The notes beneath the pieces are model-generated. The model was not told where the DNA came from. It saw nothing but the letters and a program-made list of their open reading frames with translations, and did not search any database. Below, one piece after another: positions 991 to 42,690 of a stretch of DNA of 49,280 nt (positions within the stretch are counted from its first letter, which is position 1; the number at the start of each line of letters is the position of its first letter). Source of the DNA: Bacteroidales bacterium (GTDB lineage Bacteria > Bacteroidota > Bacteroidia > Bacteroidales > WCHB1-69); the NCBI GenBank assembly GCA_017438945.1, contig JAFRUI010000004.1, positions 1 to 49,280 of the forward strand, written 5' to 3'. Position numbers and translations under genes: made by a program.

Positions 991-998
991 TATCTTTG
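991..998 (+). promoter_or_regulatory. Bacteroidota -7 box (TATCTTTG) for the aldolase cassette
   Basis: The sequence matches the TAnnTTTG consensus and lies about 30 bases before the ATG at 1027, between the sorting-domain gene and the glycan cassette. It suggests that the cassette has its own transcript. No clear -33 element was identified. Confidence 0.6.
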
Positions 999-1026: not shown

Positions 1027-2574
1027 ATGGAGCTACTATTGAAGAAAACACAGATACTGGATTGTACGCTTCGCGATGGCGGTTATTACAATGACTGGGA
1101 TTTCAATGATAGCATTGTGGAGGCGTATATTAATGGAATTAACAACTTGCCAATAGATTATATTGAGGTTGGATACCGAAGCAAGCCTACAGAGGAGTAT
1201 CAAGGCAAATTTGGGTATTCACCAGTCCATGAGCTTCGGCAGATTCGGCAACAGACGAACAAGAAAATTGCCGTAATGCTCAATGAGAAAAGTACGAAAC
1301 CTGCTGATTTGCAACAATTAACAGAACCCATTCAAGGCCTTGTTGATATGGTTCGTCTGGCAGTGGCGCCAGATAATCTACAACGTGCCACCACATTGGC
1401 AAAGGCTGTGAAAGAACAAGGCTTCGAGGTGGCTTTCAACATTATGTATATGTCCACATGGAACCAATACGAGAATTTCTATGAAAATCTGAAAGCGCTG
1501 AATGGTATAGTGGATATTGTGAATATGGTCGATTCTTTCGGAGGGGTGATGCCTAATGATGTGACAACCATTGTGGATAAATTACGACAAACAATCAGCT
1601 GCAAGATAGGCTTTCACGGTCATAACAATCTTCAGATGGGATTAATCAACACGCTGACAGCCATCAATTGTGGCATTGACTCTGTTGATTGCACTATACT
1701 TGGCATGGGAAGAGGGGCTGGCAACTTGAACACCGAATTGCTGTTGTCCTATCTTAACAGCAAAGGACTCGATGTGGATTTCAATACCATGAGTGAGGTG
1801 ATCACCGCTTTTCAGCCACTTTATGAAACATATCGTTGGGGGACCCAGCTGCCATATATGATTTCCGGAGCCAATTCACTCCCTCAAAAGGAAGTGATGT
1901 CTCTGGTAACCAATCGCGTGTATTCTTTTGACAGTGTGATTCGCGGGCTGCAGAATAAGAAAAACAAAGTCGCGGACAATGCCAAATACCCAATCTTATC
2001 CGAAGATAAATTTGACGATGTGGTTATCATTGGAGGCGGTGTTTCCCCGTTGGATCACCTGGAGGCTATTGTCCAGTTCGTCCGACAAAAACAATCGGTG
2101 GCGTTGGTTTTCGCCTCTTCCCGTCATGTCGCCTATTATCAGGACCTGGACGTGCCGGAATTCTTTTGCTTGATGGGGCGTGAGGCAAAACGTTTGGCTA
2201 AGAATGCAAAACAACCTTTTACAGGCAAGTGTGTCCTCCTTCCATATCCGCGAAAGTTAGGGACCGAAGTGCCGGATTTCGCTACTGACAAAACGTTTGA
2301 GTTGTCAGGAATCAGCTTCACAGATCATTATTTGGATTCTTGTACAACATTGGCCATTGAAACGGCACTTTGTCTTTCCAATAAGAATATATATGTAGTT
2401 GGATACGATGGTTATGCCTCGACGGTTCTTTCTGAAAAAGAAATAGCATTAACTAATGAGAACAGAACGCTTTTTGAGGATTACCACAAATACACAGGGA
2501 ACAGACTTGTGTCACTCACCAAATCACTTTACCAAGAATTAAATGTTGTGTCGATTTATCAATTCATGAAATGA
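1027..2574 (+). CDS. DRE-TIM (HMGL-like) pyruvate aldolase with C-terminal Rossmann-like domain
   Basis: Residues ~8-270 form an HMGL-like TIM barrel: LDCTLRDGG at 11-19 (catalytic Arg16, metal ligand Asp17), HGHNNL at 197-202 (metal-binding histidines) and GMGRGAGN at 226-233. This pattern is closest to 4-hydroxy-2-oxovalerate-type aldolases, which use a divalent metal to make or break a C-C bond with pyruvate. Residues ~330-515 form a second domain starting VVIIGGGVSPLDHLEAIV that resembles Rossmann-type DUF115/MptE-like domains; its role is unknown. The stop overlaps the start of the CMP-sugar synthetase by 4 bases. With a phosphatase and a GT52-like transferase downstream, I infer that it condenses pyruvate with a sugar aldehyde to make an ulosonic acid. 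Substrate and direction are not shown by the sequence. Confidence 0.8.
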   Translation: MELLLKKTQILDCTLRDGGYYNDWDFNDSIVEAYINGINNLPIDYIEVGYRSKPTEEYQGKFGYSPVHELRQIRQQTNKKIAVMLNEKSTKPADLQQLTEPIQGLVDMVRLAVAPDNLQRATTLAKAVKEQGFEVAFNIMYMSTWNQYENFYENLKALNGIVDIVNMVDSFGGVMPNDVTTIVDKLRQTISCKIGFHGHNNLQMGLINTLTAINCGIDSVDCTILGMGRGAGNLNTELLLSYLNSKGLDVDFNTMSEVITAFQPLYETYRWGTQLPYMISGANSLPQKEVMSLVTNRVYSFDSVIRGLQNKKNKVADNAKYPILSEDKFDDVVIIGGGVSPLDHLEAIVQFVRQKQSVALVFASSRHVAYYQDLDVPEFFCLMGREAKRLAKNAKQPFTGKCVLLPYPRKLGTEVPDFATDKTFELSGISFTDHYLDSCTTLAIETALCLSNKNIYVVGYDGYASTVLSEKEIALTNENRTLFEDYHKYTGNRLVSLTKSLYQELNVVSIYQFMK

Positions 2575-3275
2575 TGAAAGAAACGATTGCATTTTTCCTT
2601 CCCACCCGAAAAGGTAGCGAGAGGGTAAAAAATAAAAATACGCGCCCCTTTGCCGATGTGGAGGATGGGTTAATGGGAAATAAAATCTCTCAGCTTGTAC
2701 AATCACGACGGATTGACGAGATTATTGTCAGCTCAAATGACGAAGATTGCATGAGAATTGCTCAAAAGTATCATGATTCGCGTATCCGGATATGTGAACG
2801 GCCAGAGTTTTTGTGTACCAGTCAGACCAATCTCCAGGATTTGATTATGTATGTGCCTACTATTACCTCTGCCAATCATATTCTTTGGGGACACGTGACA
2901 ACGCCAATAATTGGGGCGGAAGAATATGACAAAGCCATTGAGAAATATTTTTTCGCACTGGAAGAAGGGTACGATTCGCTAGTCGGTGTAAAGGAATTAC
3001 GTAACTTCCTGTTGAATCGGGATGGCAGGATTATAAATAATACAACAGATATCCCCTGGCCTCGAACCCAAGATCTGGAAACCCTGTATGAGATAAATCA
3101 CACGATGTTCATTGCGAGTCGGAAAATCTATGAAGAAAAGAAGAACCGTTTAGGCGATCATCCTTATTTGTATGTTATGAATGAGCTCGTGTCTTTTGAC
3201 ATCGATTGGGAGGATGATTTCAAAATAGCAGAAATGATTTATGCGTATATGAAAAACAATGGTTTAAAGAAGTAG
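2571..3275 (+). CDS. CMP-ulosonate (acylneuraminate-like) cytidylyltransferase
   Basis: This 234-residue protein activates a nonulosonic or related acid sugar with CTP. The N-terminal signature FLPTRKGSERVKNKNTRPF is the nucleotide-binding segment of the NeuA/KdsB-type fold. Later motifs such as IIVSSNDEDCMRIAQ and WGHVTTPIIGAEEYD match the CMP-sialate synthetase pattern. The start is ATG at 2571, overlapping the aldolase stop (ATGA); a second ATG at 2574 is equally possible. It sits in an operon with an aldolase, a HAD phosphatase and a GT52-like transferase. No NeuB-like synthase, NeuC-like epimerase or acetyltransferase lies beside it, so the sugar it activates is unknown. KdsB is less likely because the sequence follows the neuraminate group. 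Confidence 0.85.
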   Translation: MMKETIAFFLPTRKGSERVKNKNTRPFADVEDGLMGNKISQLVQSRRIDEIIVSSNDEDCMRIAQKYHDSRIRICERPEFLCTSQTNLQDLIMYVPTITSANHILWGHVTTPIIGAEEYDKAIEKYFFALEEGYDSLVGVKELRNFLLNRDGRIINNTTDIPWPRTQDLETLYEINHTMFIASRKIYEEKKNRLGDHPYLYVMNELVSFDIDWEDDFKIAEMIYAYMKNNGLKK

Positions 3276-3284
3276 AAATTCGTA

Positions 3285-3935
3285 ATGTCCAAATATAAAA
3301 CCATCATTTTTGATCTTGACGGCACTTTGGCGGACACTTCCGAAGGCATTTACAATTGCATCCGCTATGCACAGAAGATGATGAAACTGCCGCCGATAAC
3401 GGATGCACAGATGCGCTCGCACATCGGGCCGCCTATGCACGAGTCTTACGAACGCAATTTTCACCTTTCCGGCGCAGATTTGGAGAAAGCAATCGGTTAC
3501 CACAAGGAATACGCTTTGACAAAAGGGCTGTATGAAGCCTCTTTGTATGAAGGGATTCCAGAATTGTTGTCCCAATTAAAGAAGCAGGGCATTCACCTTG
3601 CAGTGGCAACCCTGAAATATGAGGAAACCGCACAAAAAATGCTTACTTTCCTTAATATCGCCCACTTTTTTGAAGTGATATGCGGAGCTTTGCCCGATGT
3701 GAAACTGACCAAAGCCCAATTGCTTGAAAAGTGCATCCAACTGTGCCACGGCACAAAAGACACATCTCTTCTTGTCGGGGACAGCTCATACGACGCTCTC
3801 GGCGCACAGGATGCCGGTATCGACTTTTTAGGAGTGACTTATGGCTTCGGTTTTGCGAACCAGCAGGAGGTTGATGAATTTCCGAACGTGGGGTGCGCGA
3901 AAACGGTAAATGAGATTGGAAGGTTATTGTCATAA
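3285..3935 (+). CDS. HAD-superfamily phosphatase (Gph-like)
   Basis: This 216-residue HAD hydrolase carries motif I FDLDGTLADT (Asp10 nucleophile, Asp12), a helical cap domain at ~15-85, a motif II-like segment in HLAVATLKYEE and motif IV LVGDSSYDALGAQDAG. Size and cap type match phosphoglycolate phosphatase-like enzymes. It starts 9 bases after the cytidylyltransferase, so it is probably co-transcribed. A natural role would be removing the phosphate from an ulosonate phosphate before CMP activation, by analogy with NeuNAc-9-P or KDN-9-P phosphatases; this is inference. It is not GmhB-like: GmhB enzymes lack this cap and carry a different motif I context, so it is unlikely to complete the heptose pathway further downstream. 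Confidence 0.8.
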   Translation: MSKYKTIIFDLDGTLADTSEGIYNCIRYAQKMMKLPPITDAQMRSHIGPPMHESYERNFHLSGADLEKAIGYHKEYALTKGLYEASLYEGIPELLSQLKKQGIHLAVATLKYEETAQKMLTFLNIAHFFEVICGALPDVKLTKAQLLEKCIQLCHGTKDTSLLVGDSSYDALGAQDAGIDFLGVTYGFGFANQQEVDEFPNVGCAKTVNEIGRLLS

Positions 3936-3956
3936 CGTGAAATCAGAATTTTTACA

Positions 3957-5030
3957 ATGAAGAACACTATCATTAAATCTCAGGACGGAAAACTTGAAGT
4001 CAAATACAGCGAGGTGCAAAACTCCTGCATGTGTGTGTCGCTGTTTGCACTCCTCCAATACCTCCTGTTGTTTGATGAAGATACCATCAAAAAGCGCACC
4101 TGCTATTTCCTTGGCTATGCGGTCAATGAAGATATCAGCAGAAAATTGCCCGGCTATCATTTCAAGGTCAAGCAGACCGTCAACAAAACATTTACTCCAA
4201 GCAGATGGATGGACAAGCTTTCGTTACGGATTTTCCGAAACTGCAAATACCCGTTCATTCAAAACACCAAAATTTATGCTCAAGATTTGGGTTTCCTTTC
4301 CTCTTTGATAGGGCGGCAATCATACACTATGTTGGCGGATGCCCCGAATTTCCTCACCATGAATATGCAACCCGACAGTGCGGAATACCAAAGGCATCTT
4401 CATCGGAACAATACCTTGCAGGGGAAATTGGAAAAACTGCTTTATGGTAATGTGGCGGTGCATACATTAGGCGATAATCCCCAATGTGTAGCGTTTTATC
4501 TTACGGAAAAGAACCATTCGCCCGTGTTAGACAACAAAAAGGTGATTATCAATTCGTTCCAGGAACTATGGCAGAAATCGTCTGACACAAAAAAGCAGTT
4601 CATTATGGATTTGTTTGGGGTGAACACGGATGATGCGCAAAAACTGATAGGGAAAAACATCATGTTTCTCACCCAACCTTTGGTGCAGGACAATATTCTC
4701 CAGGAAAATGAATATTTGACCTTGTTGCAGTCCATTTTCAACCACTATGATCGTTCGAAGGTGATCATCAAAACGCATCCGAGGGACGCTTTCCCATATC
4801 GGCAATATTTTCCTGACATTGAGGTGTATGACAAGAAAGTCAACATCCAGTTGCTGTTATTGTCGGGGGTCCGCCTTCAGAAAGCCGTCACGATTTGTTC
4901 CTCTTCCATCAATGCGTTTCCCAATGAGGTGGAGGCGGATTGGTTTGGCACCGGTTTACATCCGAATTTGCGTCAATTCTATGGAGAAGAAATGAAACCT
5001 TTCAGGCCATATAACCAAATGTCTTTGTAA
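3957..5030 (+). CDS. GT52-like (sialyltransferase-type) glycosyltransferase
   Basis: This 357-residue protein has no signal peptide. Features resembling family GT52 (lipooligosaccharide sialyltransferases) are an N-terminal CVSLFALLQYLLL strand-helix, the segment IMFLTQPLVQD near residue 235, IIKTHPRD near 265 (a conserved His-Pro of the nucleotide-binding lobe) and TICSSSINAF near 315, which corresponds to the serine-rich CMP-contact loop. It follows the CMP-sugar synthetase and phosphatase in the same operon with a 21-base gap. The likely role is transfer of the CMP-activated acid sugar to a surface glycan. The assignment rests on motif resemblance, not on a search; a related polysialyltransferase-type family would also fit. 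Confidence 0.6.
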   Translation: MKNTIIKSQDGKLEVKYSEVQNSCMCVSLFALLQYLLLFDEDTIKKRTCYFLGYAVNEDISRKLPGYHFKVKQTVNKTFTPSRWMDKLSLRIFRNCKYPFIQNTKIYAQDLGFLSSLIGRQSYTMLADAPNFLTMNMQPDSAEYQRHLHRNNTLQGKLEKLLYGNVAVHTLGDNPQCVAFYLTEKNHSPVLDNKKVIINSFQELWQKSSDTKKQFIMDLFGVNTDDAQKLIGKNIMFLTQPLVQDNILQENEYLTLLQSIFNHYDRSKVIIKTHPRDAFPYRQYFPDIEVYDKKVNIQLLLLSGVRLQKAVTICSSSINAFPNEVEADWFGTGLHPNLRQFYGEEMKPFRPYNQMSL

Positions 5031-5040
5031 TTGTTTGCGT

Positions 5041-5886
5041 ATGACAATAAAACGTTTTTTTTACAGAAGTGCCGTACGTGGTTTGGAGCAGCTTTGCCTT
5101 CTTCATGGTTCCAATCGGTGTGCCAAGTCTTGTCTTTCGCTTGAAAGTCTGCCGGAAGGCAATAAACACACGGATATTATCACTGTTGCTTTTAATAATG
5201 CGCAAATAATACCGTTAAACGTTGAATATGTTGAAAAATATTACCAAGATGACCACACGCATATTATAGCGGACAATTCATCAGATCCGAAAAGCGCTGA
5301 TTTGATTAGGAAATTCTGTGAGGAGAATAAAGTTGCTTATATCCGAGTGCCGAAGAATCACCTCAATATTTTCAGCGGCAGCTACAATCACGCAACCGCT
5401 TTGAATTGGGTATATAAATATGTGGTTCGGAAACGGAATCCAGCCTATTTTGGTTTCATTGACCATGATTTGTTCCCGACAAAACCCATCAGTCTTGTGA
5501 ATCTGTTAGATGTTCAGCATATTTATGGCCCATTACGTAAACGAGGGGAATATTGGTATCTGTCTGCCATTCTCTCTTTCTTTGATTATCTTTATGTGAA
5601 AGACAAAAAGGTCGATTTTTTGCCAGTCAAGTATGATAATGAGCATTATTTGGATTCAGGAGGCGGGAATTGGAGTGACATATATTCTAAAATGAACATG
5701 TCTGAAATCCATTTCTGCGAAGAGAGAATGGAAAACTTCAGAGAGGGGAACAATCGCCATCAAGATCAGGTGGAGATTTTTGATGATATGTGGTTGCATA
5801 CCATTAATGGTTCCTATTGGAAAAAAATCAGTGTTCAGAAAGAAAATATAATCACAGAATTAATCCAAAAATATGAACACAAATGA
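5041..5886 (+). CDS. GT-A fold glycosyltransferase-like protein
   Basis: This 281-residue protein has a core resembling family 2-type transferases: HTDIITVAFNNAQII, then HIIADNSSDPKS, then FGFIDHDLFPTKP, where DHD sits in the position of the usual DxD metal motif. A later GGGNWSDIYSK segment may be the acceptor side. I chose ATG at 5041; a TTG two codons upstream (5035) would also keep the frame. It is the last gene of the + strand cassette, 10 bases after the GT52-like gene, and converges on the GT2 gene at 5912. The donor and acceptor sugars are unknown. The DHD in place of DxD is somewhat unusual but occurs in divergent GT-A enzymes. Confidence 0.6.
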   Translation: MTIKRFFYRSAVRGLEQLCLLHGSNRCAKSCLSLESLPEGNKHTDIITVAFNNAQIIPLNVEYVEKYYQDDHTHIIADNSSDPKSADLIRKFCEENKVAYIRVPKNHLNIFSGSYNHATALNWVYKYVVRKRNPAYFGFIDHDLFPTKPISLVNLLDVQHIYGPLRKRGEYWYLSAILSFFDYLYVKDKKVDFLPVKYDNEHYLDSGGGNWSDIYSKMNMSEIHFCEERMENFREGNNRHQDQVEIFDDMWLHTINGSYWKKISVQKENIITELIQKYEHK

Positions 5887-5911
5887 CGATGATATAAATG
5901 GCGAATAGCGG

Positions 5912-6814
5912 TCACTTTCCCACTAACCCCTTCGTCACATTCCATCTGAACTGAATCAGCTTCCAACCTTTTTTCGGGAAACCAGTAAGAGTATGACCGA
6001 TGCACAGCACGATGGAGGCCGCCCACCTGATGCATTCTGAAATTAACCGTTTCGCATACTTCCACTTCCCGATCGCTAACGTCCGCATCCGCTCGCTTTG
6101 GCCAATAGAGTAGGTCAAGCGGTCGAAATAGTCTTTGCTAAGCTTTTTCTCTGGAATCAGATGGTATAAGATAGCATCGGGAAGATAAAAGAATCGCATA
6201 CCCTGCGCGATCATCTTGTCGAAAATGTCTTTTTCTTCTGCACCGACCAGACTGTCGCCTTTCCGCCCCAGATCCACATTGAACAATCCTACTTTCTCGA
6301 AAACTGAGGTTCGGTAGGCAGCATTACCACCACCAGGAAAGTCATTTTGAGGGAATTCCCTGATTTTGTCCCCAAGATACTTATATCCCGTAATCAGTGC
6401 TTTGGTAAAATGCGACATCCAATCGGGTTCTTGTGTCTCATATTGCGGGATAATCGGACCACCGGCGGCATCAATGTCAGGATATTGGTTGAAAAAATCG
6501 TAGTAGGTTTGCAGATACTCGTTGTTGACCAAGGCGTCATCGTCCACATACACCAGAATGTCGCCTGCACTTTCCTTAATGCCCCGGTTTCGGGCATGGG
6601 AAAGTCCCTGATTGGTTTCCACAAAATAGCGGAAGCGCACATCAGGAAAATCCCGCACAAAGCGGTCGCACTCGCCACATGTGTTGTCTGTGCAGTTGTT
6701 GTCTACCAAGACAATCTCGTACTTTTCCGGCAACAGCGTGTTCTCAGCCAGACTTTTCAGTACATTGTAAATGTACTTGTCGCGATTGTAGGTGCAGATG
6801 ATAACGGAAAGCAT
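5912..6814 (-). CDS. Family 2 glycosyltransferase
   Basis: This 300-residue GT2 enzyme starts with LSVIICTYNRDKYI, contains VLVDNNCTDNT and NQGLSHARNRG, and has the DxD motif in VYVDDDALVNNEY near residue 92. The GGGNAAYRTSVFEKVGLFN and GAEEKDIFDKMIAQG segments are the usual acceptor and catalytic-base region (ED-like). A C-terminal hydrophobic stretch (IRWAASIVLCIGHTLTGF) could be a membrane-associated helix. It follows the YfhO gene by 16 bases on the same strand, so the two are probably one transcript. The likely job is adding a hexose to a lipid-linked surface glycan; the substrate is unknown. Confidence 0.85.
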   Translation of the reverse strand: MLSVIICTYNRDKYIYNVLKSLAENTLLPEKYEIVLVDNNCTDNTCGECDRFVRDFPDVRFRYFVETNQGLSHARNRGIKESAGDILVYVDDDALVNNEYLQTYYDFFNQYPDIDAAGGPIIPQYETQEPDWMSHFTKALITGYKYLGDKIREFPQNDFPGGGNAAYRTSVFEKVGLFNVDLGRKGDSLVGAEEKDIFDKMIAQGMRFFYLPDAILYHLIPEKKLSKDYFDRLTYSIGQSERMRTLAIGKWKYAKRLISECIRWAASIVLCIGHTLTGFPKKGWKLIQFRWNVTKGLVGK

Positions 6815-6830
6815 AGTCTAAGGATGGTGG

Positions 6831-9311
6831 TTAGTTATTGGTTGCTTCTTTCCTCGGCTTACGGTAATACAGCACCAATGAGCCCGCAACCACTAAAACA
6901 AACAAAATGGAGCAAATCACGGATATTTTGTCCAACTTGTGCATCAGCGGAGCCTCATTCCTGAACTCAATCTTGTGCTCGCCAGCGGGGATGACCATGG
7001 CACGCAGGATGTAGTTGGCGCGGAAATAGTCGGCTGGTTTGCCGTCGATATAGGCGCGCCAGTCGGGGGCGTAATAGACCTCCGAGAAGACAGCCAGCTG
7101 ATCTTTGGCACTCTTGGACTTATAGACCACATAGTCAGGGTTATACGGTTTCTGGTGCTCCATGGCAATGACGGCGTTACTGTCGCGTTCCAGGTTCTTG
7201 CCCTGCACCATTTCGGCGAAACGCTTGTCAATGACAGCCGTGTCAGCTGGGTTCAACTCATTCAGTGCCAAAATCTCCGCGTTGGCATCCTCCACCAACT
7301 GGAACTGGTCTACGAACCAAGCATTGCCCAAAGCGTCGGGATTTCGCTGCACCATGGGCTGACCGCCTTGTCCGGGCATCACAACGTAGCGGGTGTTCAG
7401 CATGTTGAGCACACCGGGGTTGATATGGCGAGAGAGATAGAAGTCGATAATGTCCTGGTAACGGCGAAGTTTCGCTGCACTGTAACCGCCGATCTGGTGG
7501 TGGAAAGCAGACGGGTAAGAGTCGTTGAAGGTGTTCACCGAGAGGTCAAACACACGATAGTCTTCGTCCTTGAACTGGGCGGCATACTGGTCCAGCATTT
7601 GGTCGGTCTCTGAGGGTTTGAGTTTGAGACGCTTCTCGCTGACGAAATTGGAGTCGTTGAGGTAGCGGCGATCGACACCCCACAGGTCGAACAACACCAA
7701 GCAGGCCAACACCCCGATAATGATGCCGGATTGCTTGATTTTCTCGTTGATGAAGAGCCATAAGAATATAGCGGACACTAAAATCAGGATGAGCGAACGC
7801 CAAGAGTCAGCCATGAAGAGGGCTTTTCTGTCTTTCACCAACACATCTCTGATCATATCCCATTGGTTGCCATATTGTGCGGCCATCTGTGTGTCGCTGG
7901 CGCCTGAGAATGAGAAATTGCCCGAGAGCGCCATCATCAACAGGATGAAACCGGCGGTAATGCCTGTGGAAATATAAAGCCCGAGATTCAGTTTCTTTTT
8001 ATCAACCGGATTGTCTTTGTCGAAGATGGTTTTCAACGCCAAAACGGCCATCAAGACCATCGTTACGTTGGCCATCACCAAACTCATCGACGGTGTGCGG
8101 AACTTGTTGTAAAGTGGCAGGTGGTCGAACAGGAAGCTGTTGAAGCCCATCAGGTTCTTGCCCCAAGACATCAGAATGGCGAGAATGGTGGCAATGAGAA
8201 TCCACCAGCGTTCAGGACCTTTCACCACGAACATTCCCAGCACAAACAGGAAGATGATGATGGCTCCGAAATAGACGGGGCCGGAGGTGAAAGGCTGGTC
8301 ACCCCAGTAGAGCGGAGCTTGTTTCTGACGGAAGTTCTTGTAAAATTCGGAATCGGTGCCGACAGTCTCACCGGATCCACCGCCGTATGCGCCGGGCACA
8401 AGCAGCGTGTAGGTCTCGCCCTTGCCATAACTCCAATTGTATGCGTAGTCGATGTCCAACCCGTCAGATGCAGTAATGGACTTGGCTTCTCCTTCCTTAT
8501 ACAAATCTTCCGGTGTGACGGTGATTTCGGAGCCGCCACGCATGGTGTATTTCACATATTCCTGGTTGATGAAGAGAATCCGGGCGTTGGCACCGACAGC
8601 AAATCCGGCGCCCACCAGCATCACGGCCAACCCCACGAGAAGGGGTTTGAACGATTTGTCCTTTATCGCATAAATCAGATAAACAACGCCTAAAATGAGG
8701 GTGATTATCAGCGTGTAATAGGTGATTTGGATGTGGTTGCAGGCAATCTGAATGCCCAAAGCCAGTGTGAACAGAATACCGCCACACAAATATTTCTCAC
8801 GTTTCAAAATCAGCAGAATACCGCCAATAATCGGCGCCATCATAGACATGGCGTATGCTTTTGTGATATGTCCGGCCTCAATAATGATGATATTGTAACT
8901 CCCCAATCCGAACGCCAAAGCGCCTAACAGGCTTAGCCATGGCGACAAACCGAGAGCGAGTAATGCCACATAAAAACCAAGCAAGTAAAAAAGGATAATC
9001 CCTACGTTAGTTGCAAGATCGAAAGAGGACAAGTTCAAACAGTTTTGGATTTTGTTGAACACAGACTTGGTCGGTGGTGATGTCACCTGATATGCCGGCA
9101 TACCACTGAACATAGAACTGGTCCATGTGGTGTATTCTCCGGTTTTGTCATGAAAGTCCTGCTGCTCTTTGGCCATGGCCTGCCATTTCATGGTATCACC
9201 TTGCATGATGACTTTGCCGTCAAAGGCAGGGGACATATAGATGGCGGCTATCAGGAAAAAGAACAGGATGATGCCACAATGGATAAGGGTTTTCTTCAGA
9301 ATCGGTTTCAT
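6831..9311 (-). CDS. YfhO-family integral membrane protein
   Basis: This 826-residue protein has a short cytoplasmic N-terminus, a first membrane helix (IILFFFLIAAIYMSPAF), about a dozen further hydrophobic helices up to ~residue 560, a large extracytoplasmic C-terminal domain, and a last helix (ISVICSILFVLVVAGSLVLYY) followed by a positive tail. This layout and the QGDTMKWQAMAKEQ segment after helix 1 match YfhO proteins, which are related to GT-C membrane glycosyltransferases; some family members take part in lipoteichoic acid or glycolipid glycosylation. The start is 36 bases downstream of a TACTTTTG box. The downstream GT2 gene supports a role in lipid-linked sugar transfer, but the actual reaction is unknown. 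Confidence 0.85.
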   Translation of the reverse strand: MKPILKKTLIHCGIILFFFLIAAIYMSPAFDGKVIMQGDTMKWQAMAKEQQDFHDKTGEYTTWTSSMFSGMPAYQVTSPPTKSVFNKIQNCLNLSSFDLATNVGIILFYLLGFYVALLALGLSPWLSLLGALAFGLGSYNIIIIEAGHITKAYAMSMMAPIIGGILLILKREKYLCGGILFTLALGIQIACNHIQITYYTLIITLILGVVYLIYAIKDKSFKPLLVGLAVMLVGAGFAVGANARILFINQEYVKYTMRGGSEITVTPEDLYKEGEAKSITASDGLDIDYAYNWSYGKGETYTLLVPGAYGGGSGETVGTDSEFYKNFRQKQAPLYWGDQPFTSGPVYFGAIIIFLFVLGMFVVKGPERWWILIATILAILMSWGKNLMGFNSFLFDHLPLYNKFRTPSMSLVMANVTMVLMAVLALKTIFDKDNPVDKKKLNLGLYISTGITAGFILLMMALSGNFSFSGASDTQMAAQYGNQWDMIRDVLVKDRKALFMADSWRSLILILVSAIFLWLFINEKIKQSGIIIGVLACLVLFDLWGVDRRYLNDSNFVSEKRLKLKPSETDQMLDQYAAQFKDEDYRVFDLSVNTFNDSYPSAFHHQIGGYSAAKLRRYQDIIDFYLSRHINPGVLNMLNTRYVVMPGQGGQPMVQRNPDALGNAWFVDQFQLVEDANAEILALNELNPADTAVIDKRFAEMVQGKNLERDSNAVIAMEHQKPYNPDYVVYKSKSAKDQLAVFSEVYYAPDWRAYIDGKPADYFRANYILRAMVIPAGEHKIEFRNEAPLMHKLDKISVICSILFVLVVAGSLVLYYRKPRKEATNN

Positions 9312-9346
9312 ATTTCCTATGTTTTTATTTCAAATTTTTAAGGCTG

Positions 9347-9354
9347 CAAAAGTA
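9347..9354 (-). promoter_or_regulatory. -7 box (TACTTTTG) for the YfhO-GT2 unit
   Basis: Read on the minus strand, this box lies about 36 bases before the YfhO start. It stands back to back with the + strand box at 9367, making a divergent promoter in the 82-base gap. Confidence 0.6.
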
Positions 9355-9366
9355 CGAAAAAATACC

Positions 9367-9374
9367 TATCTTTG
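9367..9374 (+). promoter_or_regulatory. -7 box (TATCTTTG) for the GT4 gene
   Basis: This TAnnTTTG match ends 19 bases before the ATG at 9394. Its position rules out the longer open frame that begins at 9241, which would overlap the divergent YfhO gene. Confidence 0.6.
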
Positions 9375-9393
9375 CCGTTTGAATTTGCATCTT

Positions 9394-10524
9394 ATGAAAA
9401 TCATCATTCTCGGAACAGCATACCCTTATCGCGGGGGATTGGCGACGTTCAACGAACGCCTCGCTGGCGAGTACCAGAGACAAGGGCACGAAGTGGAAAT
9501 GTACACCTTTACCCTGCAATATCCCAATTTCCTTTTTCCCGGGAAGACCCAGTTCAGTCCAGACCCGGCACCGAAGGAATTGACAATATACCGCAAAGTA
9601 CACTCCTGTAACCCGTTCAATTGGTTGAAAGTGGGCAAGGAACTTTCCAAAAAACGTCCTGATGTGCTCGTTTTCGCATATTGGATGTCGTTTATGGCCC
9701 CTTGCATGGGCACGATTGCACGCAAAGTGCGGCGCAATCACCATACCAAGATTATTGCGCTGGTCCACAACATGATACCTCACGAACCGAATGTTCTGGA
9801 CAAGATTCTGCCATCCTATTTCGTGAAGTCCATGGACGGATTCATGGCGCTGTCGGAATCGGTCGTCAAAGACATTGAGAAATTCGACAAACGCAACTGC
9901 CCCAAGCGGTTCTCTCCGCATCCCATCTATGACCATTACGGGGAACGGCTTCCCCGAGAGACAGCCCTTTCCTTGCTAAACCTCAGTCCAGATTCCCGTT
10001 ATGCACTGTTTTTTGGATTTATCCGTGCCTACAAAGGGCTGGATTTGCTGTTGGGAGCTTTTGCCGACGACCGGCTTCGCCAACAGAACGTGAAGCTTAT
10101 CGTGGCTGGCGAGTTCTACGGTGACTCTGAACCTTATCTCAAGCAAATCAAAGATTTAGGAATCGAAGACAGGGTGGTGCTCTGCACGGATTTCATCCCC
10201 GACGGCGAAGTGAACCGTTATTTCAGCGCGGCGGATATCGTGGCGCAACCATACAAGACCGCTACACAAAGCGGGGTCACCCAAATCGCCTTCCATTTCG
10301 AAAAACCTATGCTGGTGACGAATGTGGGAGGCCTGCCCGAAATTGTTCCCGATGGCAAAATCGGTTACGTAACAGAACCCGATGCCAAACAAATCGCTGA
10401 TGCCCTATACCGTTTCTTCCAGGAGCACAAACAAGAGGAATTTGAACGGAATGTGGCCGAAGAGAAGAAAAAATACGCTTGGTCAAGGTTTGTGGAGGTG
10501 ATGGATGAGGTGATACACGAATAA
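9394..10524 (+). CDS. Family 4 glycosyltransferase
   Basis: This 376-residue GT-B enzyme has an N-terminal acceptor lobe starting MKIIILGTAYPYRGGLATFNERL with the glycine-rich loop YRGG. The C-terminal lobe contains ALFFGFIRAYKGLDLLLGAF, VKLIVAGEFYG and the donor-binding segment from QSGVTQIAFHFEKP to VTNVGGLPE, as in GT4 retaining transferases; the usual glutamate of the E-x7-E motif appears here as Q-x9-E or similar, so the exact motif is relaxed. The frame is open upstream to 9241, but I chose ATG 9394 because it follows a -7 box and gives a normal N-terminus. It precedes the heptose genes, which have their own promoter at 10567. It is likely part of surface polysaccharide assembly. Confidence 0.85.
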   Translation: MKIIILGTAYPYRGGLATFNERLAGEYQRQGHEVEMYTFTLQYPNFLFPGKTQFSPDPAPKELTIYRKVHSCNPFNWLKVGKELSKKRPDVLVFAYWMSFMAPCMGTIARKVRRNHHTKIIALVHNMIPHEPNVLDKILPSYFVKSMDGFMALSESVVKDIEKFDKRNCPKRFSPHPIYDHYGERLPRETALSLLNLSPDSRYALFFGFIRAYKGLDLLLGAFADDRLRQQNVKLIVAGEFYGDSEPYLKQIKDLGIEDRVVLCTDFIPDGEVNRYFSAADIVAQPYKTATQSGVTQIAFHFEKPMLVTNVGGLPEIVPDGKIGYVTEPDAKQIADALYRFFQEHKQEEFERNVAEEKKKYAWSRFVEVMDEVIHE

Positions 10525-10566
10525 TAACGGGAAAACCCACAGGGCTGCCAATATTCGCAATTTGTG

Positions 10567-10574
10567 TATATTTG
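10567..10574 (+). promoter_or_regulatory. -7 box (TATATTTG) for the heptose operon
   Basis: This TAnnTTTG match lies about 65 bases before the hddA ATG at 10640, in the 115-base gap after the GT4 gene. It indicates separate transcription of the heptose genes with a leader of roughly 60 bases. Confidence 0.55.
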
Positions 10575-10639
10575 CATTTCCGTTTTTATAGAGAAATCAG
10601 AATTCAAACAAGGACTAAATAGCTGAATATCATTCGATT

Positions 10640-11677
10640 ATGATAATCCGAAGTAAAGCTCCCCTCCGATTAGGTCTCGCCGGCGGCGGTACCGATGTCT
10701 CGCCGTTTTCCGACATTTACGGCGGCACCATCCTTAACGCCACGGTGAACATGTACGCCTACACTACCTTGGAACCGCTGGACAACGGACAGATTGTGTT
10801 TGAAAATCCAGCCAAGGAAGATTTTGGAGAAACCTTTGACGCTGCCGATGAGATATCGCCGGAGGGTTATTTCATCCTTCACAAAGGGGTCTATAACCGC
10901 ATCGTCAAGCAGTTCACGCACAAGCCATTGTCGTTCAAGATGAGTACGTTTGTGGATGCGCCTCCCGGCTCAGGTTTGGGTACTTCCTCCACCTTGGTCG
11001 TTTCGATTCTCGGCGCATTCGTGGAGTGGCTGAAGCTCCCGCTCGGTGAATATGACATTGCGAAGCTCGCATACGAGATTGAACGAATAGACCTGCAAAT
11101 GGCCGGTGGCAAACAGGACCAATATGCCGCCACTTTCGGTGGTTTTAACTACATGGAATTCATCGGCGATAACGTGATCGTCAATCCGTTACATATCCGT
11201 CAACGCTATTCTGACGAGCTTGCGCACAACTTAGTGCTTTACCATACCGCCACCAGTCACGTGTCCGCACAAATTATTGAAGAACAGCAGAAGAATGTCC
11301 AGGCGAAAAAACAGAAGTCTATCGATGCGATGCTGGCCCTGAAAGAACAGGCAGCCCAGATGAAAGAGGTTCTGCTGAAAGGCGATCTGGATGCCATCGG
11401 AAAGATTCTGGACGAAGGGTGGAAACACAAGAAACAGATGGCCGACAGCGTTTCCAATGCATTCATTGATGAGGTGTACGAGGAGGCCATGAGTGCGGGC
11501 GCCACCGGCGGAAAGATCTCCGGTGCTGGCGGCGGCGGATTTATGTTTTTCTACTGCCCCTCCAACGCCCGATATAAGGTCATCGACCATCTCGCAAAAT
11601 TCGGTGGCCAGTCGAAACGTTACGAATTTGTCACCGAGGGACTCAAAACGTGGACGATGGATGATAAGATGATGTGA
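10640..11677 (+). CDS. hddA: D-glycero-alpha-D-manno-heptose 7-phosphate kinase
   Basis: This 345-residue GHMP kinase phosphorylates C1 of heptose 7-phosphate in the GDP-D-glycero-alpha-D-manno-heptose route, which feeds S-layer, capsule or O-antigen synthesis. It starts IIRSKAPLRLGLAGGGTDVSPF, the signature of the HddA/fucokinase-like group, has the phosphate-binding motif PPGSGLGTSS at 108-117, the basic/catalytic segment around QMAGGKQDQYAATFGG, and the C-terminal GHMP motif GGKISGAGGGGFMFFY. It is followed within 7 bases by hddC and then gmhA, which makes the heptose assignment strong over other GHMP sugars. Length is normal. Confidence 0.92.
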   Translation: MIIRSKAPLRLGLAGGGTDVSPFSDIYGGTILNATVNMYAYTTLEPLDNGQIVFENPAKEDFGETFDAADEISPEGYFILHKGVYNRIVKQFTHKPLSFKMSTFVDAPPGSGLGTSSTLVVSILGAFVEWLKLPLGEYDIAKLAYEIERIDLQMAGGKQDQYAATFGGFNYMEFIGDNVIVNPLHIRQRYSDELAHNLVLYHTATSHVSAQIIEEQQKNVQAKKQKSIDAMLALKEQAAQMKEVLLKGDLDAIGKILDEGWKHKKQMADSVSNAFIDEVYEEAMSAGATGGKISGAGGGGFMFFYCPSNARYKVIDHLAKFGGQSKRYEFVTEGLKTWTMDDKMM

Positions 11678-11684
11678 TGATAAG

Positions 11685-12389
11685 ATGATGGATGTTGAGA
11701 TTAAAGAAGCGATTATTTTGGCCGGCGGACTCGGCACACGGCTTCAAGGCGTGGTCAAAGACCTGCCCAAGCCGATGGCATCAGTCAACGGAAGGCCTTT
11801 TTTAACGTATATTTTGGACTATCTAATTGATTATGAATACCAAAGAGTTGTTTTATCGGTGGGCTACCTACATGAAAAAATTGTGGATTATTTCGGAGAG
11901 AGATATAAAACCCTGGAGATTGACTATGCCGTGGAAACGGAACCGTTAGGCACCGGCGGAGGCATTCTGTTTGCCATGTCCAAGTGCACGTCCGACAATG
12001 TACTTGTGATTAATGGCGATACGATGTTCAAGGTTGATTTGGATGCTTTTGAGCACTTTCATCAGGAGAAAAACAGTTTGCTTTCCATCGTGCTCCGCGA
12101 AGTGGAAGATGTGTCCCGATACGGAAGCGTTTCTGTTGGTTATGACGGACTGATCACGATGTTTTCCGAAAAGCAGGTTTCGGTAGGCAGTGGTTTCATC
12201 AACGGCGGTGTTTATCTCATCAGCAAAAAATTATTTGAGAAATATCCCCAACCCAAGATGTTTTCATTCGAGAAAGACCTTATGACCAAATACTATACGC
12301 AAGAATGCTTTTACGCTATGCCCTCTGATGGATACTTCATTGACATCGGAATTCCCGAAGATTATGCCCGGGCGCAGAGAGAATTGTAA
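11685..12389 (+). CDS. hddC: D-glycero-alpha-D-manno-heptose 1-phosphate guanylyltransferase
   Basis: This 234-residue nucleotidyltransferase makes GDP-heptose from GTP and heptose 1-phosphate. It shows the nucleotide loop ILAGGLGTRLQ at 11-21, the PKPM segment at 28-31, the product-binding YAVETEPLGTGGGILFA and the metal site VINGDTMF. It ends FIDIGIPEDYARAQRE, the usual tail of this group. ATG 11685 was chosen, and 11688 is an in-frame alternative. Its place between hddA and gmhA fixes the substrate; by motif alone a mannose-1-P or glucose-1-P transferase would also be possible. Confidence 0.9.
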   Translation: MMDVEIKEAIILAGGLGTRLQGVVKDLPKPMASVNGRPFLTYILDYLIDYEYQRVVLSVGYLHEKIVDYFGERYKTLEIDYAVETEPLGTGGGILFAMSKCTSDNVLVINGDTMFKVDLDAFEHFHQEKNSLLSIVLREVEDVSRYGSVSVGYDGLITMFSEKQVSVGSGFINGGVYLISKKLFEKYPQPKMFSFEKDLMTKYYTQECFYAMPSDGYFIDIGIPEDYARAQREL

Positions 12390-12393
12390 CCGA

Positions 12394-12416
12394 GGTGTAT
12401 GCGATACACCCCTACA
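12394..12416. repeat. Degenerate member of the palindromic repeat family
   Basis: Just after hddC there is a GGTGTAT-gcg-ATACACC hairpin (7-base arms) followed by CCTACA. The right side matches the terminus of the larger palindrome at 34705-34785, while the left terminus (TGTAGG) is missing. It could act as a weak hairpin in the hddC-gmhA gap. Confidence 0.5.
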
Positions 12417-12433
12417 AGTTGCTTATCACAATT

Positions 12434-12468
12434 AACCTTTGAACTTTGAACCTTAAACCTTAAACCAA
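12434..12468. repeat. Heptanucleotide-period array before gmhA
   Basis: Five consecutive 7-base units are seen: AACCTTT, GAACTTT, GAACCTT, AAACCTT, AAACCAA. The array ends two bases before the gmhA ATG. The unit drifts while the 7-base phase is kept, as in the other intergenic arrays of this window. Confidence 0.75.
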
Positions 12469-12470
12469 TA

Positions 12471-13046
12471 ATGAATTCCCGAATACCCCAATCCATCGAA
12501 CAATCCATCGCCGTGAAACAGGCGATTTTAGATAATCCCGAATTTCAAAGCCGTATCCAACAGGCGGCGGAGATGATTACCACATCGCTGCGGGGCGGTG
12601 GCAAAATCCACTTCTGCGGCAATGGCGGCAGCGCGGCAGACGCCCAGCACCTCGCCGCCGAGCTCTCCGGCCGTTTCTACTTTGACCGGCCGCCGCTCAA
12701 TGCCGAAGCCCTCCACTGCAACACCTCCTACCTCACCGCTGTGGGCAACGACTACGGCTACGACCTCATCTTCTCGAGGCTTCTGCGCGGCACCGCCAAG
12801 GCCGGTGACGTCGTTGTGGGCATCTCCACTTCGGGCAATTCCAAGAATATCCTCAAAGCTTTCGAGGTGGCCAAAGAGATGGGCGTGAAAATCATCGCTA
12901 TGACCGGAGAAACCGGCGGCGCGATGAAAGACTACGCCGACATTCTGCTGAATGCACCCTCCAAGGATACCCCCCGCATCCAGGAAAGCCACATTATGCT
13001 CGGACATATCATCTGCGAACTCGTCGAAACCGCAATGTTCGGCTAA
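12471..13046 (+). CDS. gmhA: Sedoheptulose 7-phosphate isomerase
   Basis: This 191-residue SIS-domain enzyme converts sedoheptulose 7-phosphate to D-glycero-D-manno-heptose 7-phosphate, the first step of the GDP-heptose route. The motif FCGNGGSAADAQHLAAELSGRF is the family signature: the GNGGS loop binds phosphate and the following Asp/His region is catalytic. VGISTSGNSKNILKA is the second SIS phosphate loop, and ESHIMLGHIICELVE carries a conserved C-terminal histidine. Length is normal. It lies 81 bases after hddC with a heptad array and a small hairpin between. Three of the four enzymes of the pathway are adjacent; the phosphatase GmhB is not seen in this window. Confidence 0.93.
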   Translation: MNSRIPQSIEQSIAVKQAILDNPEFQSRIQQAAEMITTSLRGGGKIHFCGNGGSAADAQHLAAELSGRFYFDRPPLNAEALHCNTSYLTAVGNDYGYDLIFSRLLRGTAKAGDVVVGISTSGNSKNILKAFEVAKEMGVKIIAMTGETGGAMKDYADILLNAPSKDTPRIQESHIMLGHIICELVETAMFG

Positions 13047-41114: not shown

Positions 41115-41804
41115 TTATTGTCTGAACGTGACGGGCACCTGATAGTAGCAGCGAACGGGTTTGCCGTTCTTTTTGCCAGGGTTCCATTTCGGCATGGACA
41201 TAACGCCACGGACGGCTTCTTTGTCGCAATCGGGGAACAACGGGACTTTGACCTTAGCGTTGCTCACTCGGCCGTCCTTCTCAACGACGAACTCTATGAG
41301 CACAGTGCCTGTGATACCCGTGTTACGAGCCACTTCGGGATATTGGATCTCGCGGGTCAGAAAAGCATTGAGCGCTTCGGGGCCGCCAGGAAACTCGGGC
41401 ATTATCTCTGTCCATGTCTCCGGTGGTTCTTCTCCTGACGATTCTTCCAACAATTCCACTTTTGTGTCTTCAATGTCAGGAATGACATCATCTTGGGTAA
41501 CTTCAACATCAAATGAAATATCCATATCCACGTGCACATTATTGTCCACGAGTTGCAGGATAACCTCTGTTTGAGGTGGTTGTTGTTGGGGAGGCGGTGG
41601 TGGGGTTTGGTCGGTGGCGAGAACATCATCATCCATGACAGTGATGAAGTCGTCATCCTGTAGTTCAAACGCTGGCGCTCTGTCTTCGCTGGCAAAAAGT
41701 TCGAAACCTGCATAAATAAGACTAAGCACCACAACGAATCCGACTAACGCGAAAAGTCCGCGTTTGTTTTCCAGATTTCCCTTGTCTGATTTCTTTGTAA
41801 CCAT
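41115..41804 (-). CDS. TonB-family energy transducer, copy 1
   Basis: This 229-residue protein has a cytoplasmic start, one membrane helix (GLFALVGFVVVLSLIYAGFELF), a linker with a proline run (TPPPPPQQQPP) and an acidic stretch, and a C-terminal TonB domain: LNAFLTREIQYPEVARNTGITGTVLIEFVVEKDGRVSNAKV and VRGVMSMPKWNPGKKNGKPVRCYYQVPVTF. It passes proton-motive energy from an ExbBD-type motor to outer-membrane receptors. The next gene upstream (42001-42690) is a close paralogue; the TonB domains are almost identical while the linker differs. No exbB/exbD or receptor is adjacent. A terminator and no clear promoter lie between the two copies. Confidence 0.92.
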   Translation of the reverse strand: MVTKKSDKGNLENKRGLFALVGFVVVLSLIYAGFELFASEDRAPAFELQDDDFITVMDDDVLATDQTPPPPPQQQPPQTEVILQLVDNNVHVDMDISFDVEVTQDDVIPDIEDTKVELLEESSGEEPPETWTEIMPEFPGGPEALNAFLTREIQYPEVARNTGITGTVLIEFVVEKDGRVSNAKVKVPLFPDCDKEAVRGVMSMPKWNPGKKNGKPVRCYYQVPVTFRQ

Positions 41805-42000: not shown

Positions 42001-42690
42001 TTATTGTCTGAAGGTGACGGGCACCTGGTAGAAACAGCGGACGGGCTTGCCCATGTTCTTACCGGGTTTCCATTTCGGCATGGCCATGACACCACGGACA
42101 GCTTCCTTGTCGCATTCAGGGAACAAGGGGACTTTGACCTTGGCGTTACTGACGCGACCGTCTTTCTCGACGACGAACTCGATCAGCACGGTGCCGGTGA
42201 TACCATTGTTACGGGCGACTTCGGGATATTGGATTTCGCGGGTCAGGAAAGCGTTGAGGGCTTCAGGACCACCAGGGAATTCAGGCATCTCTTCTGTAAA
42301 CATCAACGGGGGTTCTTCCTCTGCAACATCCTCGACCACATCAATCTGCTCATCTGAAATGTCGAGCACCACATCATCCTCGTTGAACTCAACATCAAAG
42401 GAGAGATCTGTATTAACCTTGATATTATCCTCCACAATGTTCAGCACAACTTCTTGTTGCTGTTGTTGCGGCTCTGGTGGCGGGGGAGGAGTCTGGTCGG
42501 TGGCGATCACATCATCATCCACCACTGTGATGAACTCATCGTCCTGCAACTCAAATGCGGGAGCCTTATCTTCATTGGCGAAAAGCTCGAAACCAGCGTA
42601 GATAAGACCTAAAACCACGGCAAATCCGACAAGAAGGAACAAGCCACGCTTGTTTTCCAAATTTCCTTTGTCTGTTTTCTTTGCGATCAT
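42001..42690 (-). CDS. TonB-family energy transducer, copy 2
   Basis: This 229-residue protein is a paralogue of the gene at 41115-41804 and has the same length. Its membrane helix is GLFLLVGFAVVLGLIYAGFELF; the linker has a Pro/Gln run (TPPPPPEPQQQQQ) followed by an acidic region rich in Asp and Glu; the TonB C-terminal domain reads YPEVARNNGITGTVLIEFVVEKDGRVS. It has its own -7 box at 42733 and a terminator at 41894, so it may be expressed apart from copy 1. The divergent linker may tune reach or partner choice across the periplasm. Confidence 0.92.
   Translation of the reverse strand: MIAKKTDKGNLENKRGLFLLVGFAVVLGLIYAGFELFANEDKAPAFELQDDEFITVVDDDVIATDQTPPPPPEPQQQQQEVVLNIVEDNIKVNTDLSFDVEFNEDDVVLDISDEQIDVVEDVAEEEPPLMFTEEMPEFPGGPEALNAFLTREIQYPEVARNNGITGTVLIEFVVEKDGRVSNAKVKVPLFPECDKEAVRGVMAMPKWKPGKNMGKPVRCFYQVPVTFRQ

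Follow-up and report, generated by a model that had tools for sequence, protein, structure and literature searches.

Can a cytidine monophosphate (CMP)-activated ulosonic acid be made in bacteria by way of a pyruvate aldolase? To our knowledge, all bacterial CMP-ulosonic acids known so far are built by phosphoenolpyruvate (PEP)-dependent synthases. The question is raised by a gene run at positions 1027-5886 of a 49,280-nucleotide stretch from a Bacteroidales bacterium (contig JAFRUI010000004.1; the whole stretch is called the window), in which a two-domain aldolase gene is followed directly by a gene for a CMP-ulosonate synthetase. An original prediction, made from the letters of the window, had proposed that the aldolase stands in for the PEP-dependent synthase NeuB. 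Judged by sequence comparison across genomes, we consider it probable that the run produces a 3-deoxy-2-ulosonic acid in CMP-activated form and transfers it in the assembly of a surface polysaccharide, with a pyruvate aldol entry replacing NeuB or KdsA. The features concerned are as follows.

991..998, + strand: promoter-like TATCTTTG, which fits the Bacteroidota -7 element TAnnTTTG (a consensus that we assume), 28 bases before the aldolase start codon
1027..2574, + strand: two-domain aldolase, 515 residues, with a DRE-TIM/HMGL catalytic domain (residues 8-254) and a weakly MptE-like C-terminal domain (residues ~319-515, nucleotides 1981-2571)
2571..3275, + strand: CMP-ulosonate synthetase, NeuA-like, 234 residues, of the Pfam CTP_transf_3 family
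3285..3935, + strand: HAD_2 phosphatase, phosphoglycolate-phosphatase-like by Pfam and NCBIfam, 216 residues, of a HAD subfamily other than that of L014, L072-L080 and Leisingera
3957..5030, + strand: glycosyltransferase, GT52/polysialyltransferase-like by Pfam, 357 residues
5035..5886, + strand: GT2-like glycosyltransferase by Pfam, 283 residues from TTG

The five open reading frames (ORFs) are collinear, with a 4-base overlap at the first junction followed by gaps of 9, 21 and 4 bases; the first four overlap or abut between 1027 and 5030 with the spacings originally described. The fifth lies beyond the coordinates of that description and is counted as part of the run; its start codon is more likely the ATG at 5041 than the TTG. 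The closest relative, L002 (aldolase 74% identical, GT2-like gene 82% identical), keeps the same five genes in order. Pfam matches exceed their cut-offs for HMGL-like PF00682 in the aldolase (92.9 bits, cut-off 29), CTP_transf_3 PF02348 in the synthetase (35.9, 22.6), HAD_2 PF13419 in the phosphatase (125, 23.8), and both GT52 PF07922 (56.8, 26.1) and POLYST PF07388 (32.7, 23.3) in the gene at 3957-5030. The promoter-like match is weak, as TAnnTTTG occurs 23 times on the + strand of the window. The G+C fraction of the run is 0.422, and that of the remaining window 0.493. An aldolase profile gives no match in three same-genus genomes, suggesting that the run is an accessory gene set.

The evidence that carries our reading is the constant pairing of the two-domain aldolase with a CMP-synthetase. 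We compared 28 two-domain loci, composed of the window, the 13 loci L002-L014, nine regions from eight of 395 genomes of the phylum, and five loci from searches of the order and of the family of genome G009; the match in G533 was left out, having the same coordinates and E-value as that in G010. Gene labels in the loci come from BLAST at 1e-7 with references partly taken from the same loci, and the counts of HAD and GT52 genes are lower bounds. In all 28 loci, the aldolase is followed on its own strand, no more than three genes downstream, by a CTP_transf_3 gene (directly adjacent in 23, at spacings of -38 to +47 bases), and Pfam PF02348 confirms the partner in every case. For comparison, the same loci hold 231 ORFs over four places away from the aldolase; a CMP-synthetase is found within three genes of 3 of these. 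One might suppose that the aldolase plays no part in CMP-sugar synthesis and clusters with the synthetase by chance or as shared surface-polysaccharide cargo, as the loci lie largely amid polysaccharide genes, where CMP-synthetases may exceed their average frequency. This is very improbable, since 28/28 stands against 3/231 within the same loci, the type of partner changes, and the same order recurs in another phylum.

Three plasmid records match at least 80% of the aldolase query, all of them from Leisingera, with about 27.5% identity over 98% of the protein. Existing annotation places an aldolase, a 3-deoxy-manno-octulosonate cytidylyltransferase and a HAD hydrolase end to end in all three. 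The conserved aldolase/CMP-synthetase pair spans two phyla. In the PLSDB plasmid gene tables, which are incomplete, two single-domain matches have no cytidylyltransferase listed nearby, and a HAD-IA hydrolase gene follows in one; two phage records match partially, covering 47% and 40% of the query. The two-domain aldolase is uncommon, being found in 9 of 395 genomes of the phylum and 6 of 393 of the order, with the window genome counted in each. In one genome, G126, the module occurs twice (L072 and L073), at a distance of about 20 kb and with different synthetases.

The pairing is confined to the two-domain form in our set. Of the 11 single-domain matches 10 were used (G821 was left out), and none has a synthetase downstream, where the sequence after the aldolase is missing for L134 and covers just two ORFs for L136. 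These single-domain aldolases (L133-L142) often lie directly after a gene of about 100 residues, identified as chorismate mutase type II in both cases scanned (L133, L140), and the two form a separate two-gene unit. L015, a 28% relative from Megasphaera with no CMP-synthetase downstream, was excluded from the 28 loci because the C-terminal profile misses it. Its positions 5755-12509 hold genes that resemble CDP-sugar genes by eye, a 535-residue aldolase of another subfamily and then a thiamine-pyrophosphate-dependent enzyme, possibly a branched-sugar pathway.

The catalytic domain itself is of a kind that could perform an aldol addition of pyruvate. Its best match among solved structures is 3dxi (E 4.2e-129, residues 9-317), which we take to be Bacteroides vulgatus Bvu_2661 with the conserved-domain name DRE_TIM_HOA_like; the catalytic domain is common to both proteins, but the solved chain of 320 residues has no C-terminal domain and is named only 'putative aldolase'. 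After 3dxi, the top-scoring solved relatives and the top family models are 4-hydroxy-2-oxovalerate aldolases. The closest NCBIfam aldolase models are of this type and are missed by a wide margin (PRK08195, 115.2 against a cut-off of 229 bits; TIGR03217, 100.2 against 286), so that the assignment to the 4-hydroxy-2-oxovalerate type in the original prediction holds at the superfamily level and fails at the family level. The enzyme shares with the DmpG/BphI-type aldolases the DRE-TIM barrel, an Arg-Asp pair, an HxH motif and a glycine-rich loop; it differs in its scores, in Tyr20 for His, and in its C-terminal domain, where no Pfam match to the dehydrogenase-communication domain, presumably a feature of 4-hydroxy-2-oxovalerate aldolase, is found at E 0.1.

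All 31 two-domain sequences (28 from Bacteroidota, 3 from Leisingera) keep Arg16, Asp17, His197, His199 and the glycine-rich GxGxGxxN loop without exception, and the four residues align with the 4-hydroxy-2-oxovalerate aldolase 4lrs. We take Arg16 to be the catalytic arginine, and Asp17 and the HxH pair (His197, His199) to bind the metal. The original prediction would have been refuted by a structure model lacking the metal ligands; in the sequences, and on these presumed roles, the residues aligning with the ligands of known relatives appear to be kept throughout. Tyr20, Tyr21 and Arg51 are likewise invariant in the 31 sequences, whereas the ten single-domain relatives have Leu, Met and Lys/Ile/Leu at these positions.

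The extra C-terminal domain that had been noticed on the aldolase is indeed present, comprising 197 residues (~319-515). Its nearest family is MptE-like PF01973, an assignment based on weak scores: the domain of the window gives 12.2 bits (E 0.15) and misses the gathering score of 34.6, 13 of the 14 members reach E 1 or better with a best value of 1.9e-4, and profile comparison with neighbouring MptE-like proteins yields a probability of 32%. Searched against solved structures, the C-terminal profile has no match, and the profile of the neighbouring MptE-like proteins has three weak matches without meaning. Built from 14 sequences, the C-terminal profile finds all 28 Bacteroidota two-domain aldolases and, weakly, the three Leisingera proteins (33-34 bits); neither L015 nor the 10 single-domain aldolases nor any of the remaining ORFs in the set is matched. 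The domain is a constant part of this two-domain subfamily; our guess is that it might bind the product or the CMP form of the product.

It is conceivable that the essential chemistry resides in this domain rather than in the barrel, and that what the synthetase activates is a small 4-hydroxy-2-oxo acid that is not a sugar, or some other acid. The domain has 33 invariant positions in the 14 sequences and co-occurs with the synthetase in 28/28 loci, as such an arrangement would have it. We regard it as quite improbable nonetheless, because many positions invariant in Bacteroidota change in the three Leisingera proteins, while the barrel residues Arg16, Asp17, His197 and His199 are kept in 31/31, and because KdsB- and NeuA-type enzymes act on 3-deoxy-ulosonic acids.

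The partners of the aldolase are far less uniform. The synthetase is NeuA-like in 19 of the 28 loci and KdsB-like in nine, one locus (L132) having both. Mapped onto the tree of aldolases, the KdsB label takes four changes, and the NeuA label, like all labels taken jointly, takes five (the partnerless L015 being given a third label); well-supported branches force three or more changes for each of the KdsB and NeuA labels. Even the sister aldolases L073 and L074 have different partners, NeuA-like and KdsB-like respectively. Arg13, Lys22 and Asp216 are invariant in all 28 synthetases, and the window synthetase aligns with 6ifd and 1eyr at the R-x-G-S-x5-K-N and C-terminal acidic motifs, which we take as marks of the NeuA/KdsB superfamily. 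The HAD genes fall into two subfamilies only 23% identical to each other, one in L014 and L072-L080 (10 loci) and the other in the window and L002; the Leisingera HAD is closer to the former (30%, E 5e-24) than to the latter (22%, E 1e-4). The substrate class common to NeuA and KdsB is a 3-deoxy-2-ulosonic acid. A constant aldolase with changing synthetase and phosphatase is what one would expect if the aldolase makes a 3-deoxy-2-ulosonic acid or its phosphate.

The accessory genes fit 2-keto-3-deoxy-acid chemistry, in that an HpcH/HpaI-type pyruvate aldolase occurs in 4 of 28 loci (L014 by Pfam and NCBIfam; L072, L073 and L076 by BLAST to L014) and a 2-keto-3-deoxygluconate (KDG)-kinase-like gene, sought in only some of the 28 loci, follows the synthetase in L128 and L131. 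The KDG-kinase-like proteins score under the curated kinase cut-offs, and that of L131 has a 2-keto-3-deoxygluconate kinase as its nearest solved chain. An NAD-dependent epimerase gene is found in L073, L074 and L076. Candidate transferases near the aldolase are GT52/POLYST (window by Pfam, L002 by BLAST), GT29 (L014) and MptE-like proteins (L005 and L009 over the cut-off; L003, L004, L006 and L007 by BLAST; L129 and L008 under the cut-off), all of which we assume to be families using CMP-ulosonates.

The KdsB-like partners also bring in another explanation, namely that the aldolase makes ordinary 3-deoxy-D-manno-octulosonic acid (Kdo) from pyruvate and arabinose 5-phosphate, as an additional or substitute source of CMP-Kdo and not of a different ulosonic acid. 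The four KdsB-like proteins scanned, out of the nine, all pass the PRK13368 and PRK05450.1-5 cut-offs, and near the aldolase in L009 lies a SIS/CBS gene of the KpsF/KdsD type, which scores over the TIGR00393 cut-off in G008. However, the same four proteins, at 131-148 bits, fall short of the TIGR00466 kdsB cut-off (155.2), the NeuA-like partners are in the majority (19 of 28), and G001-G008 possess KdsA over the cut-off together with an unlinked strong KdsB-like match (174-195 bits), which would make a second Kdo route redundant. In G009-G012, KdsD over the cut-off was not found, with only weak partial matches. Taken together, we consider a Kdo product improbable. The KdsB-type partners do imply that the product may lie outside the nonulosonic acids. 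The HAD and GT52-like genes of the original prediction, seen in 12/28 and 2/28 loci, fall outside the conserved core.

If the aldolase replaces a PEP-dependent synthase, such synthases should often be missing where it occurs. The original prediction would have been refuted by NeuB always occurring together with the aldolase, which is not the case. Scanning with PF03102 the 27 carrier genomes, some of which are incomplete or have no stated completeness, we find no NeuB in 22, and the window genome (63% complete) has no match; NeuB is thus no constant companion of the aldolase, and the other five genomes are treated below. NeuB-model matches in G008 and G014 were rejected, as L017 and L016, the proteins concerned, exceed the PRK08673 and TIGR01361 cut-offs of 3-deoxy-D-arabino-heptulosonate 7-phosphate (DAHP) synthase. 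KdsA over the cut-off was not found in the window genome G000, at the same 63% completeness, nor in G009-G012 or G013. The four genomes G009-G012, whose completeness is not given, agree in having neither NeuB nor KdsA over the cut-off, and the single CTP_transf_3 match in each is the aldolase-linked gene. Their weak KdsA-model matches (34-39 bits, in frames of 377-389 residues) are probably DAHP synthases. With the synthetase coupled to the aldolase in 28/28 loci and 3/3 Leisingera plasmids, and NeuB absent from 22/27 carriers, the proposal that the aldolase stands in for NeuB gains support at the level of gene content.

In G009-G012, all Bacteroidales, the Kdo transferase WaaA is present (regions L081-L084), while none of KdsA, KdsB and KdsD scores over the cut-off, and a replacement of KdsA by the aldolase was considered for this reason. 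As a general substitute for lost KdsA in supplying the Kdo of lipopolysaccharide, the aldolase was rejected: in the family of G009, KdsA over the cut-off is found in 71 of 119 genomes and the aldolase in three (G009, G010 and G497, the last of which has KdsA), and of the 48 genomes in which KdsA does not exceed the cut-off, 46 lack the aldolase as well.

Several observations weigh against an aldol entry to a CMP-ulosonic acid. The loci are not all independent, as L003-L007 and L010-L013 form close groups on the tree. Tyr20, in 31/31 sequences, occupies the position of the His after RDG(S) in 4lrs, for which we assume a catalytic role in 4-hydroxy-2-oxovalerate aldolase, and therefore the chemistry may differ. 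The substrate of the window synthetase cannot be named, because its score is far under the PseF TIGR03584 cut-off (63.2 against 205.7 bits). A HAD gene is found in at least 12 of 28 loci and none is seen by BLAST in the other 16; a GT52-like gene, by BLAST label, is found in at least two (window, L002) and is not seen in the other 26. No aldose-supplying gene is conserved among the labelled genes of the loci. Five of the 27 carriers do have NeuB (G334, G216, G019, G217 and G610), and in G334 a NeuB-like gene lies at 13640-14680 of L075, 2.7 kb downstream of the aldolase-linked synthetase; its product was counted as NeuB, being over the PF03102 cut-off but under those of NeuB_NnaB and PseI. KdsA scores over the cut-off in 8 of 14 carriers tested (G001-G008), and a ulosonate pool therefore already exists there. 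Beside the NeuB-like gene of L075 lies a gene that looks SpsF-like by eye.

The presence of KdsA and NeuB in some carriers would suit an enzyme that extends, trims or branches a ulosonic acid supplied by a PEP-dependent synthase (KdsA, NeuB or another), or performs a Claisen-type condensation with an acyl-CoA, leaving the synthetase to activate its product. PEP-dependent DAHP synthases do occur in these genomes, as shown for G008, and the DRE-TIM matches include acyl-CoA-using synthases. We find such a role unlikely, however, because G009-G012 carry the module with neither KdsA over the cut-off nor NeuB, and because the best relatives after 3dxi, structures and family models alike, are 4-hydroxy-2-oxovalerate aldolases.

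We thus retain synthesis of the ulosonic acid by an aldol entry as the preferred reading, and a plausible course can be outlined in four steps. First, a metal-bound pyruvate enolate in the DRE-TIM domain would attack an aldose, phosphorylated or not, and the resulting 4-hydroxy-2-oxo acid would be a 3-deoxy-2-ulosonic acid or its phosphate. A HAD phosphatase would then take off the phosphate in those loci, the window included, that have its gene. The NeuA- or KdsB-type enzyme, whose family membership is established, would activate the acid with CTP. Finally, a transferase of a CMP-ulosonate-using family, here GT52/POLYST, would put the acid onto a glycan.

This scheme resembles the NeuB, PseI and LegI pathways in that a carbon-carbon bond-forming step precedes a CMP-ulosonate synthetase and a sialyltransferase-like glycosyltransferase, and departs from them in that the entry enzyme would be a DRE-TIM aldolase in place of a NeuB-type synthase. 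The Kdo pathway (KdsD-KdsA-KdsC-KdsB) likewise has condensation, HAD phosphatase and CMP-synthetase in that order, but here an aldolase would take the place of KdsA, and the 25 NCBIfam matches shown for the window HAD are led by phosphoglycolate phosphatases, with KdsC not among them. A laboratory counterpart exists: CMP-sialic acid is synthesized from N-acetylmannosamine and pyruvate by the joint use of an aldolase and CMP-sialic acid synthetase (PMC7729866). Both combine pyruvate with an aldose and then use CTP, whereas the pair described here would be natural, biosynthetic and reliant on a metal-dependent DRE-TIM aldolase. No natural pathway of this kind was described in the literature that we searched by titles and abstract openings, with subscription papers mostly outside the search.

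Elsewhere in the window, a type IX secretion CHU_C-domain protein (11-976, its frame open to the contig start) lies just upstream of the run. Genes at 10640-13046 are most like HddA, HddC and GmhA of the GDP-D-glycero-D-manno-heptose pathway, all under curated cut-offs, and two tandem paralogues of 229 residues, 77% identical, lie on the - strand at 41115-41804 and 42001-42690.

A bolder version would make the system a natural third entry to CMP-ulosonic acids, next to those through NeuB and KdsA: a metal-dependent pyruvate aldolase fused to a glycosyltransferase-like (MptE-like) domain would form the acid and hand it on to the synthetase, with synthetase and phosphatase repeatedly replaced. 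In G009-G012 this would be the sole source of CMP-ulosonate, perhaps for the sugar linking lipid A and core. On the sequences compared, we put this forward tentatively, as doubtful in its full extent. If an aldol entry is true, annotation that searches for NeuB or KdsA would miss acid-sugar pathways in NeuB-less genomes, and gut and marine bacteria may carry ulosonic acids with other chain lengths. The aldolase group with the solved structure 3dxi would gain a testable function, and acid sugars could be prepared from pyruvate with a metal-dependent aldolase.

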